A stretch of DNA of 45,246 nucleotides from an uncultured Clostridium sp. (lineage in GTDB: Bacteria > Bacillota > Clostridia > TANB77 > CAG-508). A model generated the notes under the pieces. The model was given only the letters and a program-made list of their open reading frames with translations. It searched no databases and was not told where the DNA came from. Location of the stretch: the NCBI GenBank assembly GCA_947165355.1, contig CAMUZZ010000007.1, positions 1 to 45,246 on the forward strand, given 5' to 3'. A program made the translations under genes and the position numbers. Positions 18,089 through 26,452 of this stretch are shown here, one piece after another (positions within the stretch are counted from its first letter, which is position 1; the number at the start of each line of letters is the position of its first letter).

Positions 18089-18100
18089 ACGAATTTTGAA

Positions 18101-18323
18101 GACGCTTCAAAATATCTTAATCATTACGCAGATATGTAAAAAGTATATACATAAAAATAGCGAACCTTACTGGTCGCATTTGTTATTAGAGTTGCATCTT
18201 TATTTTAGGTAAATGATTTAAGAAATGTTACGGTTATTTACACATGCTCCCAAACTGCGCGGTTCTTTATTTTTATGTATATACTTTTTACTTTGCAATT
18301 AATTTGAAATATTTTGAAGTGTC
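18101..18323. ncRNA. Structured intergenic element, copy 1 (candidate novel RNA)
   Basis: In the 364-base gap between divergent genes. Outer arms 18101-18115 and 18309-18323 pair over 15 bp with one G.U if read on the plus strand. An internal loop follows, then a perfect 24-bp stem (18136-18159 with 18268-18291), a 2x2 loop, GAACC/GGTTC (18162-18166 with 18261-18265), a conserved asymmetric loop and GCAT/ATGC (18176-18179 with 18244-18247). The apical part is about 60 AT-rich bases. The blocks 18161-18179 and 18242-18270 are identical in copy 2 at 25634-25849, while the arm sequences differ and remain self-complementary. I do not recognise a known RNA family. The single wobble weakly favours plus-strand transcription. 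Confidence 0.7.
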
Positions 18324-18336
18324 CGAAAAATTCTTA

Positions 18337-20062: not shown

Positions 20063-22444
20063 ATGAAAAATAAAAATGAATTAAGCTACAAAAGTTTAAA
20101 AACAAAATGCGATCCATCTGTTTTTAGTTTTGAAACAACTGATGAATTAACTGGTATTGAGACAGGAATCGGCCAAGACCGCGGAATTAAAGCACTAGAA
20201 TTTGGATTAAACGTAGATATTAAAGGCTATAACCTATACCTAGAAGGTCCTAGCGGGGTTGGAAAAACAATGTATACAAAACACTACTTAGATAAAATAT
20301 CTAAAAAGAAAAAAACTCCTTGTGATTGGTGCTACATCTATAATTTTAATAATCCAAATGAACCAGTAGCTCTACCCCTACATGCAGGACAAGGTAAAGA
20401 ATTTAAAGAGCAAATGGATTCATTCATTAAAGATATAAAGAAAGATTTAAAAAGTACTTTCGATAACGATGATTTTGAAAAAGAAAAAGCTTTAATTACG
20501 CAAACCTACGAAGCTCAAAGAGATGCTTTAATGGATAAATTAAATAAAAAATCAGCTAAGTATGGATTCCAGGTAAAATCATCTCAAAATGGTATTTATA
20601 TGATGCCTATTATAAATGGTAAAGCCATTGAACAAGATGAATTTGAGAAACTTGATGATGAAGTAAAACAAAACTTTGAAGATAACTCTAGTATAGTTCA
20701 AGAACAAATTCTTCAAGTTATAAGTGAAATTAAAACAATAGAGCGTGAAACTCAAAAGAAACTATCAGAATGGCAATCTAATGTTGCTTTGTTAACAATT
20801 AATGCACATATAAACTATATAAAATCGAAATTTAAAAGAAATAAAAAAATTAACACTTTCTTGGAAAGCATTAAACAAGATATATTAAAAAACATCGACA
20901 CATTTCTAGTTGAAACACCAGAAAATCAACCAGTTCAACCAGGTCCAAGACCTGAACAACCTAAGCCATGGCAGAATTATAGAGTTAATTTATTTATAGA
21001 TAATAGCGAGCAAAACGGTGCTCCAGTTATTATGGATTCAGATTACTCATATCATAACATTTTCGGAAAATTGGAATACGAAAACTACTATGGATCTTTA
21101 AAAACCGATTACACAATGTTAAAACCAGGATTATTACATCAAGCCAATGGCGGTTACATTGTTTTCCAAGCTCATGACTTACTAGAAAATGCTATTTGTT
21201 ATGAAACCTTAAAAAAGGCACTACGTCAAAAACAATTGTTGCTTGAAAATACAGCTGATCCTCGTTCTCCAATGGTTATGGTTTCTTTAAAACCCGAACC
21301 AATTCCTCTAGATTTAAAAGTAATACTTATTGGAAATGAAGAAATATATCAAACACTAATGGCAATGGACAAAGACTTTGGAAAACTATTTAAAATTAAA
21401 GTTGAATTCGAAGATTCATCAGAAAATACTGTTGAAAACATGAACAAATTAGCACAATTTATTCACGGATTATGCACCCAACAAGAGCTTCCACCTCTTG
21501 ATGCATCCGCTGTTGCTAAAATTATAGAATACTCTTCTAGACTTGCTGATAACCAAGAAAAACTATCTACCAGATTTAATGACCTAGCTCAAGTAATTGG
21601 TGAAGCAGCTACATGGGCAACTATGAATAAAGAAAGAATTGTTACTTCAAAATACGTTGACATGGCTTTGGAAGAACGAGTAAATAGAATAAAAAAATAT
21701 GATACTATGTACATGGAAATGATAAAAGAAAATACATTATTAATAGACACATCAGGAAGTAAAGTTGGTCAAATTAATGGATTAACCGTAATGAACATTG
21801 GTGATTACACATTTGGAAAACCGGTAAAAATAACAGCAAATACTTTTACTGGCAAAACAGGAATAATAAACATAGAGCGTGAAGTAGATTTATCTGGATC
21901 TACACATTCTAAAGGTGTTTACATTCTTAGTGGATATTTGGGAGAAAAATTTGCCCAAGACATCCCAATGAATCTAACAGCAAGTATATGTTTTGAACAA
22001 TTATACAATGGCGTAGATGGTGATAGTGCTTCAAGTACAGAACTATATGCAATTCTTTCAAGCTTATCTGGAATTCCAATTAACCAATCATTTGCAGTAA
22101 CTGGATCAGTTAATCAAAAAGGCGAAATTCAACCTATTGGTGGAGTTAATGAAAAAATTGAAGGTTACTACCAAATATGCAAAATGCGCGGTTTAGATGG
22201 TAGCCATTCTGTAATTATTCCAGTACAAAACACAAAAAATTTAAACCTAAATCAAGAAGTTGTAGATGCAGTTAAAGCAGGAAAATTCCATGTTTACGCA
22301 ATTAGTACAATAGATGAAGGAATTGAACTATTAACCGGAGTACCAGCTGGAAAACGTGATTCAAACGGTAAATTCCCAGCAGGAACAATAAACTACCTAG
22401 CTTACGAAAAATTAAAAAAATTTGCAGAAATAAAAACAAAATAG
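20063..22444 (+). CDS. ATP-dependent Lon-family protease, LonC-like
   Basis: 793 residues. The N-terminal AAA module has Walker A LEGPSGVGKTMYTKHYL (residues 67-83) and is split by a long helical insertion of about 200 charged residues (100-300). A second half of the AAA region carries GGYIVFQAHDLLENA and VILIGNEEIY, with sensor/arginine-finger helices up to ~560. The C-terminal Lon protease domain has the catalytic dyad Ser655 (DGDSASSTEL) and Lys698 (GGVNEKIEGYY), 43 residues apart as in classical Lon. The lack of a Lon N-domain and the split AAA match the AAA_32/LonC group common in Clostridia. AAGGAGG lies six bases before the ATG. It lies 19 bases after rimI, probably co-transcribed, and ends at a bidirectional terminator. 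Confidence 0.92.
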   Translation: MKNKNELSYKSLKTKCDPSVFSFETTDELTGIETGIGQDRGIKALEFGLNVDIKGYNLYLEGPSGVGKTMYTKHYLDKISKKKKTPCDWCYIYNFNNPNEPVALPLHAGQGKEFKEQMDSFIKDIKKDLKSTFDNDDFEKEKALITQTYEAQRDALMDKLNKKSAKYGFQVKSSQNGIYMMPIINGKAIEQDEFEKLDDEVKQNFEDNSSIVQEQILQVISEIKTIERETQKKLSEWQSNVALLTINAHINYIKSKFKRNKKINTFLESIKQDILKNIDTFLVETPENQPVQPGPRPEQPKPWQNYRVNLFIDNSEQNGAPVIMDSDYSYHNIFGKLEYENYYGSLKTDYTMLKPGLLHQANGGYIVFQAHDLLENAICYETLKKALRQKQLLLENTADPRSPMVMVSLKPEPIPLDLKVILIGNEEIYQTLMAMDKDFGKLFKIKVEFEDSSENTVENMNKLAQFIHGLCTQQELPPLDASAVAKIIEYSSRLADNQEKLSTRFNDLAQVIGEAATWATMNKERIVTSKYVDMALEERVNRIKKYDTMYMEMIKENTLLIDTSGSKVGQINGLTVMNIGDYTFGKPVKITANTFTGKTGIINIEREVDLSGSTHSKGVYILSGYLGEKFAQDIPMNLTASICFEQLYNGVDGDSASSTELYAILSSLSGIPINQSFAVTGSVNQKGEIQPIGGVNEKIEGYYQICKMRGLDGSHSVIIPVQNTKNLNLNQEVVDAVKAGKFHVYAISTIDEGIELLTGVPAGKRDSNGKFPAGTINYLAYEKLKKFAEIKTK

Positions 22445-24352: not shown

Positions 24353-25531
24353 CTAGTTACTACATAAATGCTTTCTTGTCATCTCAAGCAAATGTAAAGG
24401 GGTAAAGCCAATAACTTGTGTTTTTGCTCTATCTTTTTTTAGTTCCTTTTCCATCAAATGAACTATTTTTTCTTCGTTTTCCTTTTCTTCCATATCTATG
24501 TAGTCTATAATTACTATTCCACCTATATCTCTTGCTCTTAATTGCCTTGCAATTTCTACAGTTGCTTCTTCATTTACTTTAAATACGGTATTTTCAAGGC
24601 TTTCTTTTCCTGTATATTTTCCTGTATTTACATCAATTGCAGTTAATGCTTCGGTTTTGTCTATTGTAATAAAACCACCACAATTAAGCCATATTTTTCT
24701 ATTTCTTAATTTTTCCAATTGATGATCAATATCCTCACTTAAAATATTATCTTTTTTATCTAGGATAAGATCTTTACTATAATCGCTGTAATCACTTTTA
24801 ATAAAATCATAAACCTCTTTACTATTTACAGTTATTCTTTCACAACTGTCAATTAAACCTAGTAAAACTTTATTCATAATTCCACCAGCTTCATATAGTT
24901 TTTCAGGAAAATTATTATTTTCAATATTCTTTTTTGCATTTTCATTTATAACATCATTTATTTCTTGAACATATTTTATGTCCTTAATTAAAACTTCTTC
25001 ATTTTGATTTTCAGATGCCGTTCTAATTATCATTCCAGTATTATTGTTTAAATTGCTTTGTACTATTTTTTTCAATCTTTCAATCTCATCTTTTTTTTCT
25101 ATCTTGCTAGAAACTGTTATAAAATCTGAATTTGGTATTGCTGCAACATACTTTCCAGCAATATTTATATCTGTTGATATTCTAGCTCCTTTAGTATCAC
25201 TTTTATCTTTCTTTACTTGAACAATTATTGGATCGCCAACTTTTATATATTTCCTGATGTCAGCCTTACTTAACTTCTCATTTTTATTTCCAGTAACATT
25301 ACTTGCTTTAGGTAACACATCTTTAATGTGCAAAAAAGCATTACGCTCCTCTCCTATATCCACAAAAGCAGCTTGCATTCCAACTAATACGTCAACCACT
25401 TTTCCCAAATATATATTACCTTCCAAAGATCTACTGTTATCAAATTCTTGATATTGCTCTACAATTTTTCCATCATCAAGTACTAAAATATCTTTCTTTT
25501 GATTATTATAGTTTATGATAATCTCTTTCAT
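24353..25531 (-). CDS. rng: Ribonuclease G/E family endoribonuclease, short form
   Basis: 392 residues from the ATG at 25531 (GGAGG 5-6 bases upstream). The S1 domain insertion is EGNIYLGKVVDVLVGMQAAFVDIGEERNAFLHIKDV, and the 5'-sensor/RNase H-like region follows. The DNase I-like catalytic domain has the two metal aspartates in ALTAIDVNTGKYTG and GGIVIIDYIDM. The protein stops directly after EMTRKHLCSN, where longer relatives continue TRKR and into the CPxC zinc-link and small domain. Dimer/tetramer assembly would therefore have to differ from E. coli. No frameshifted continuation is visible in the 45 bases before rimO. The promoter at 25587-25615 drives rng-rimO. Confidence 0.9.
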   Translation of the reverse strand: MKEIIINYNNQKKDILVLDDGKIVEQYQEFDNSRSLEGNIYLGKVVDVLVGMQAAFVDIGEERNAFLHIKDVLPKASNVTGNKNEKLSKADIRKYIKVGDPIIVQVKKDKSDTKGARISTDINIAGKYVAAIPNSDFITVSSKIEKKDEIERLKKIVQSNLNNNTGMIIRTASENQNEEVLIKDIKYVQEINDVINENAKKNIENNNFPEKLYEAGGIMNKVLLGLIDSCERITVNSKEVYDFIKSDYSDYSKDLILDKKDNILSEDIDHQLEKLRNRKIWLNCGGFITIDKTEALTAIDVNTGKYTGKESLENTVFKVNEEATVEIARQLRARDIGGIVIIDYIDMEEKENEEKIVHLMEKELKKDRAKTQVIGFTPLHLLEMTRKHLCSN

Positions 25532-25586
25532 TTTTCCTCCAATATTATTCACATAAAATTCTCTTTCTTAAGTAAAATACTCGTAA

Positions 25587-25615
25587 ATTATAGCATATCT
25601 TTTGATTTTATTCAA
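25587..25615 (-). promoter_or_regulatory. Promoter of rng-rimO
   Basis: TTGAAT (25610-25615), 17 bases, TATAAT (25587-25592), with TGC before the -10 (extended -10), minus strand. It begins 18 bases from the structured element copy 2. Confidence 0.8.
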
Positions 25616-25633
25616 TATCTACATAATGTCTAA

Positions 25634-25849
25634 AAGATTTTGATATTATATACCTTTTTAAACTACAGAATAAAAAACATATATATATAATATCGAACCT
25701 TACTGGTCGCATGTATTATTAAAGTACCAAACAAATTATATCTATATTATTTAAGATACTTTACGTTTAATTTATACATGCTCCCAAACTGCGCGGTTCT
25801 TTATTATATATATATGTTTTCTGCTTTCAGTGAACTATATCAAAATCTT
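25634..25849. ncRNA. Structured intergenic element, copy 2 (candidate novel RNA)
   Basis: Fills most of the 342-base gap between pth and rng. Outer arms 25634-25646 and 25837-25849 pair perfectly over 13 bp. After an internal loop, a perfect 19-bp stem (25674-25692 with 25802-25820) leads through a 2x2 loop to GAACC/GGTTC (25695-25699 with 25795-25799) and GCAT/ATGC (25709-25712 with 25778-25781). Blocks 25694-25712 and 25776-25804 are identical to copy 1, while the stems have different sequences that are again self-complementary. The 63-base apical region shares only patches (ATTTAAGA, TTACG) with copy 1. No reading frame of note lies inside it. Confidence 0.7.
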
Positions 25850-25894: not shown

Positions 25895-26452
25895 TTAGTT
25901 ATACGTATTCATCGCAATATCAATTCCATCTTTAATAATTGATGAAACTGCTTTTGCGGCTTCTTTAATTCCTTTTCGAAGCTCTTCATACTCTTCATCT
26001 GTAGTATTACCTATAACATAGTTTATTAAATCACCCTTGAATTCAGGTGTTCCAATACCAACTCTTACTCTAGCAAAATCTTCTGAGTTTAATCTTTGAA
26101 CTACAGATTTCATTCCATTATGAGTTCCTGGTCCACCTTTTTTTCTAATTCTAACTTTACCAGGCTCTGTGTCTATGTCATCGTATATTACAATGATATC
26201 ATCTAATGAAAGTTTGTAAAAATTAACAAATTGTATAACTGAATCTCCACTTAAATTCATATATGTTTGTGGCTTAAGTAAAACCACTTTTTCTCCTTCT
26301 ATTTCTCCGCAACCATATAATCCATCAAATTTTTCTCTTGAAATTGCTATCTTATATTTATCAGCAAGTTCGTTTAAAACATCAACACCCATATTGTGTC
26401 TTGTTCGTGCATATTCAGCTTCTGGATTTCCTAGTCCCACTATAAGATACAT
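25895..26452 (-). CDS. pth: Peptidyl-tRNA hydrolase
   Basis: 185 residues, normal length. It frees tRNA from peptidyl-tRNA that has dropped off ribosomes. The N-terminus YLIVGLGNPEAEYARTRHNMGVDVLN carries the catalytic His and first Asn; LLKPQTYMNLSGDSV, IIVIYDDIDTEPGKVRIRKKGGPGTHNGMKSV and FARVRVGIGTPEFKGDLINYVIG are the remaining conserved blocks. GGGAGG precedes the ATG by six bases. It lies 47 bases downstream of alr on the same strand and is followed by structured element copy 2. Confidence 0.97.
   Translation of the reverse strand: MYLIVGLGNPEAEYARTRHNMGVDVLNELADKYKIAISREKFDGLYGCGEIEGEKVVLLKPQTYMNLSGDSVIQFVNFYKLSLDDIIVIYDDIDTEPGKVRIRKKGGPGTHNGMKSVVQRLNSEDFARVRVGIGTPEFKGDLINYVIGNTTDEEYEELRKGIKEAAKAVSSIIKDGIDIAMNTYN

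Follow-up and report, generated by a model that had tools for sequence, protein, structure and literature searches.

What is the long hairpin that separates pth from rng in an uncultured Clostridium species, and does it belong to that locus? The window analysed here, a stretch of 45,246 nucleotides, carries on its minus strand pth (aminoacyl-tRNA hydrolase, TIGR00447) at 25895–26452 and rng (RNase E/G family, TIGR00757) at 24353–25552, and between them, on the same strand, a palindromic element at 25634–25849. A first-pass annotation had taken this element for the second copy of a multi-copy family, and had proposed that it terminates or processes pth mRNA or is an independent small RNA.

Read inwards on the minus strand, the element has first an outer arm and next an inner arm of ~20 bp; a stem of 5 bp then leads to an internal loop and a variable apex. 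The outer arm AAGATTTTGATAT (25837–25849) matches 25634–25646 perfectly over 13 bp and the inner arm AAAACATATATATATAATA (25802–25820) pairs perfectly with 25674–25692 over 19 bp; the perfect arms described earlier are borne out at the positions given. The internal loop opposes GCGCAGUUUGGGAGC on one strand to GCGACCAGUAAGG on the other and is nearly invariant, lying below an apical part (25711–25779) that differs among copies in sequence and in length. Its first core strand is GCGCAGTTTGGGAGC (25780–25794), with GAACC alongside at 25795–25799, and this is joined to the second, GCGACCAGTAAGG (25698–25710), by the pairs UGG:CCA, GC:GU and GC:GC around tandem G.A. The minus-strand fold reaches -65.3 kcal/mol (z -8.73) and the plus-strand fold -50.8 kcal/mol (z -7.17), and none of 200 shuffles folds as well in either case; the predicted natural reading strand is the minus one, on which the core GC:GU pair forms. 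GCGCAGUUUGGGAGC resembles the D arm of a tRNA, and ARAGORN finds no tRNA there. Downstream of the element lies a promoter-like site for rng, TTGAAT-17-TATAAT (25587–25615, minus strand); the TG that would make its -10 box an extended one is present as annotated, the site as a whole being a consensus match only.

The guess of a multi-copy family holds, two copies being an understatement. Copy 1 (18091–18333, minus strand; covariance-model match 18131–18293) sits 7.5 kb from copy 2, between divergent genes. A 23-base core pattern retrieves 13 copies from the source genome (reversed control, 0), and a covariance model built from these 13 matches 24 distinct places, collapsed from 42 matches that include opposite-strand duplicates; at copy 2 the match spans 25665–25826. 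The genome searched comprises 893 kb and is 67% complete; there are at least 24 copies, some of them with a short apex, and across the family the element spans about 160–260 bp. A search of 114 genomes with the model also brings up 12 of the 15 congeners, together with seven genomes that belong to the same family but to other genera. Of 76 relatives' genomes, 16 contain the core 12-mer CGCGCAGYTTGG; none of the 16 belongs to another family of the order, and the reversed controls occur in none of the 76. No family in Rfam 15 matches above noise, and we take this to be a previously uncatalogued hairpin repeat, absent from Rfam as a family. A phage origin was rejected when the core pair was not found in viral contigs, and a plasmid origin when matches covered only 24% at E 0.01, as expected of AT-rich chance; two exact core hits in a contig search (Mycobacterium and Phycisphaerales) lack the partner strand and are likewise chance. 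Copies of the element break the assemblies of relatives: in G002, contig ends fall inside it dozens of times, as expected for a high-copy repeat.

The 13 source-genome copies allow the conserved parts to be defined. All 15 bases of core strand 1 are invariant among them, and core strand 2 has one or two variable bases. In their alignment 97.5% of cells pair and both partners have changed in 21 of 34 pairs, values reached by none of 500 shuffles; two-sided changes occupy 52 cells against about 9 for one-sided ones, and the signal is lost when the partner strand is slid. The inner arms are thus homologous and covarying among copies, including copies 1 and 2, where ~16 of 24 positions align, and the earlier statement that the arms of the two copies are unrelated fails for them. 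For the outer arms it stands by eye, with traces of a common ...CACTTCAAAA motif appearing genome-wide. Similarly, the conserved patches once described in the apex are real, but together they make up a single internal loop whose two strands are almost invariant.

Comparison with relatives separates the element from the locus. In 14 of 14 congeners examined pth adjoins rng without it; the gap measures roughly 19–90 nt in 13 of them, compared with 366 nt in the source genome, and G014 has a longer run of simple sequence there. Absence from the same locus in close relatives is one of the observations that the first-pass annotation had itself named as refuting its reading. A further empty locus is provided by the G008 copy L241: the orthologous gap of G013 and that of G002 have neither this copy nor its arms. 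Copies are intergenic in every gene arrangement and follow no orientation rule. Synteny of this kind suggests that the element at pth-rng is an insertion, not part of the locus. That it acts in cis to terminate or process pth mRNA is a proposal that draws on its position between pth and the apparent rng promoter, and is very improbable: because 14 congeners keep pth-rng without the element, it does not look like a control element of either gene, it has no T tract or predicted intrinsic terminator, and other copies lie between divergent genes. A riboswitch or other cis element was rejected on the same grounds of variable gene context and loci that lack the element in relatives.

The arms behave differently from the core, and differently from genome to genome. 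In G005, identity between copies is 86% in the apex and 90% in the first 25 nt of the arm. Between 25 and 80 nt from the core it is 0.49, 0.46 and 0.41, against 0.46, 0.49 and 0.40 for shuffled sequence, and pairing within copies is 96, 93 and 85%. Copies in G001 and G014 have arms in common further out. The layout in G011, judged by eye, is a GGGACGG-TTCTAAAAAT block, ~30 copy-specific pairing nucleotides, an TGTCGAAA block and then the core, and several relatives show conserved GAGTAG / CGGC ends on the outer side of variable arms. At L057 and L226 the palindrome takes in the last codons and the stop of the adjacent gene. One palindrome, L288 (G013 contig 31, 7400–7700), has element arms and no core, and is apparently a deletion derivative.

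Template switching in quasi-palindromes is an established process, and the pattern of changes in the arms is suggestive of something similar. Isolated arm mismatches comprise 55 G.U and 41 A.C, a mild lean only, and one-sided distinct mismatches among related copies comprise 34 and 20. Related copies also differ by 49 distinct compensated changes, of which 29 are transversions; since these 29 cannot pass via a wobble pair, copying at the DNA level is suspected. The scarcity of wobble pairs and the many transversion double changes suggest that the arms are written from each other at that level, and selection for pairing may contribute too. The orthologous pair L159/L170, with one uncompensated arm difference and none compensated, speaks against continuous correction.

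The reading we consider likely is that a palindromic element of the REPIN/MITE kind, dispersed through the genome and non-autonomous, inserted at pth-rng in this lineage and gave rise to copy 2. In such a scheme, the element would be recognised while folded as a single strand, through the nearly invariant bipartite core near the hairpin centre, the arms would need only to pair, arm sequence would be left to drift or be replaced as long as pairing is kept, one arm would be rewritten from the other at the DNA level, and an enzyme acting in trans would supply mobility. Mobility in trans, recognition of single-stranded DNA and arm-to-arm copying are steps that we infer. Could the structure instead be that of an RNA? 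A multi-copy structured small RNA, a rod-like molecule with the core as an internal loop that binds protein or is catalytic and with stems selected only for pairing, would account for the irregular, nearly invariant loop with tandem G.A, the variable stems and the strong covariation; the 34 to 20 lean towards G.U is in its favour, as is the finding that, for 15 of the 19 source-genome copies, core plus 25 nt is more stable when folded as the element strand. It is nonetheless unlikely, given that across 120 copies folding energy does not consistently single out either strand and the apex folds better as the opposite one, that wobble pairs favour neither strand consistently and their bias is weak, that loci show presence and absence, that arms of 60–95 bp are longer than an RNA fold would require, and that Rfam holds no relative.

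How, then, do mobile hairpins obtain arms that pair almost perfectly and yet show near-random identity between copies? One answer is that the element inserts into the loop of long perfect hairpins already present at gene ends, such as bidirectional terminators or REPs of the GGGAC type, so that the outer arms are target DNA; this concerns the origin of the arms within the mobile-hairpin reading and is not an exclusive alternative to it. REP palindromes of the source genome occur with and without the element, and one convergent gene pair has unrelated long palindromes in G011, G005 and G014, with the element in G011 only. On the other side, ~12 long palindromes in 240 kb of G005 have a conserved apex and only 2 at score ≥24 are plain, the flanking arms of the G008 copy L241 are common to L239–L241 and travel with the element, and the GAGTAG / CGGC ends of several relatives lie beyond the variable arms. 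Insertion into existing hairpins is possible but doubtful. A second answer, rather unlikely as it stands, is that the conserved centre lands and that sequence around it, local or random, is copied to give a perfect inverted repeat peculiar to that copy; fold-back synthesis or a dedicated enzyme would do the copying, and the mechanism would be common to several apex families. If true, a class of mobile hairpins in one bacterial family would renew its arms at or near each insertion. For the unique arms, the census of palindromes favours arms made with the insertion, while the L057 locus in relatives and the REP cases favour existing hairpins. Copying from elsewhere in the genome was rejected for L144, whose arm occurs in G005 twice only, as its own two arms, and nowhere in seven congeners. 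CRISPR-like spacers were rejected as well: a 20-mer and a 54-nt stretch of the L144 arm and a 21-mer from a sister family are absent from viral or phage collections.

Neither of two candidate mobilisers tracks the element. The Y1 transposase (PF01797) is missing from the element-carrying genomes G002, G013 and G014, and the reverse transcriptase (PF00078) from G001, G004, G008 and G013. No RAYT (PF01797) was found in the incomplete source genome, and the RAYT-like loci checked in other genomes are without the core. There is no autonomous copy among about 120 analysed, and copies fetched from 76 genomes yielded no ORF, no large apical insert and no parent or related autonomous transposon. No target duplication was identified; the outer arms differ between copies.

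The element has company. A census of 240 kb of G005 and 160 kb of G011 revealed at least four further families with a conserved apex inside copy-specific perfect arms, several of them with the same GTAGAGTAG / CGGC borders and none with an Rfam match at gathering score. Those of G005, at least four in that genome alone (L339 17218–17492, L340 2513–2714, L346 594–805, L350 11228–11445, L342 11247–11398, L343 11716–11869 and L344 11862–12050), have conserved apices of about 80–145 nt that are unrelated between families. In the sister family formed by L350 11228–11445 and L346 594–805, the apex strands CGACAAGCTAGTAAGAG and TTCGCAGTTGGGG look like those of the element's core in swapped order, as if the internal loop were circularly permuted.

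Other repeats and genes were met along the way. The outer GGGAC boxes resemble REPs, and in the source genome (L093, L095, L099 and L108) ~20 sites carry the REP-like GGGACGGTTCTGTTTGACACA, mostly as palindromic pairs, some empty and some with the element. At L332 of G007, near 1050–1093 and 1991–2018, one such box, GGGACACCTCCAAAAAA, flanks a RAYT-like gene; it also forms the outer arm of copies L050 and L203. Downstream of a gene for 188 amino acids, congeners (L291 and L293) carry unrelated long palindromes at one convergent gene pair, some spanning the stop codon; turnover of palindromes at gene ends appears to be rapid in the genus. In the window itself, 20063–22444 encodes a 793-aa Lon-related protein with an archaeal-type LonB match below the curated cut-off, adjoining tsaE, tsaB and rimI. 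Outside it, L038 1738–1936 matches a T-box leader with an E value of 9e-12, below the gathering score.

The element pulls apart strong covariation and RNA function, two signals that are normally read as one. Covariation with few wobble intermediates and many transversion pairs points to arm-to-arm copying of DNA, and is a warning for RNA discovery based on covariation.

Which known systems does the element resemble? It shares with 6S RNA a rod with internal loops, and differs in its tens of copies, its other core and the lack of any Rfam match; the earlier dismissal of 6S holds, with no match to the 6S covariance model at gathering score or at E 5. Bacterial MITEs (PMC5896051, PMC2229807) are likewise short, palindromic, non-autonomous and multi-copy, with no ORF, and insertion polymorphism is a further trait of this kind in the element. 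However, MITE copies have common terminal repeats, whereas the outer arms of the element often match only within a copy. GTAG-tagged REPs (PMC3733652) are mostly intergenic, and in several relatives the elements have GTAGAGTAG just beyond the hairpin foot; these REPs measure 20–40 bp, well below the span of the element, and the copies in the window lack the tag. REPINs, which are REP doublets that form hairpins and are associated with RAYT transposases (PMC3116915), are also dispersed intergenic non-coding hairpins in many copies, with conserved blocks and a variable spacer kept pairing by compensatory changes, and the element shares this arrangement, a hairpin of two inverted repeats whose spacer varies and still pairs. 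It departs from them in its longer arms (20–95 bp), wholly copy-specific in some genomes, and in that several element-rich genomes have no Y1 transposase. REPINs carry a conserved REP at both hairpin ends; end blocks of the element are seen only in some relatives and not in the source genome, and its most conserved block is the two-strand core near the apex.
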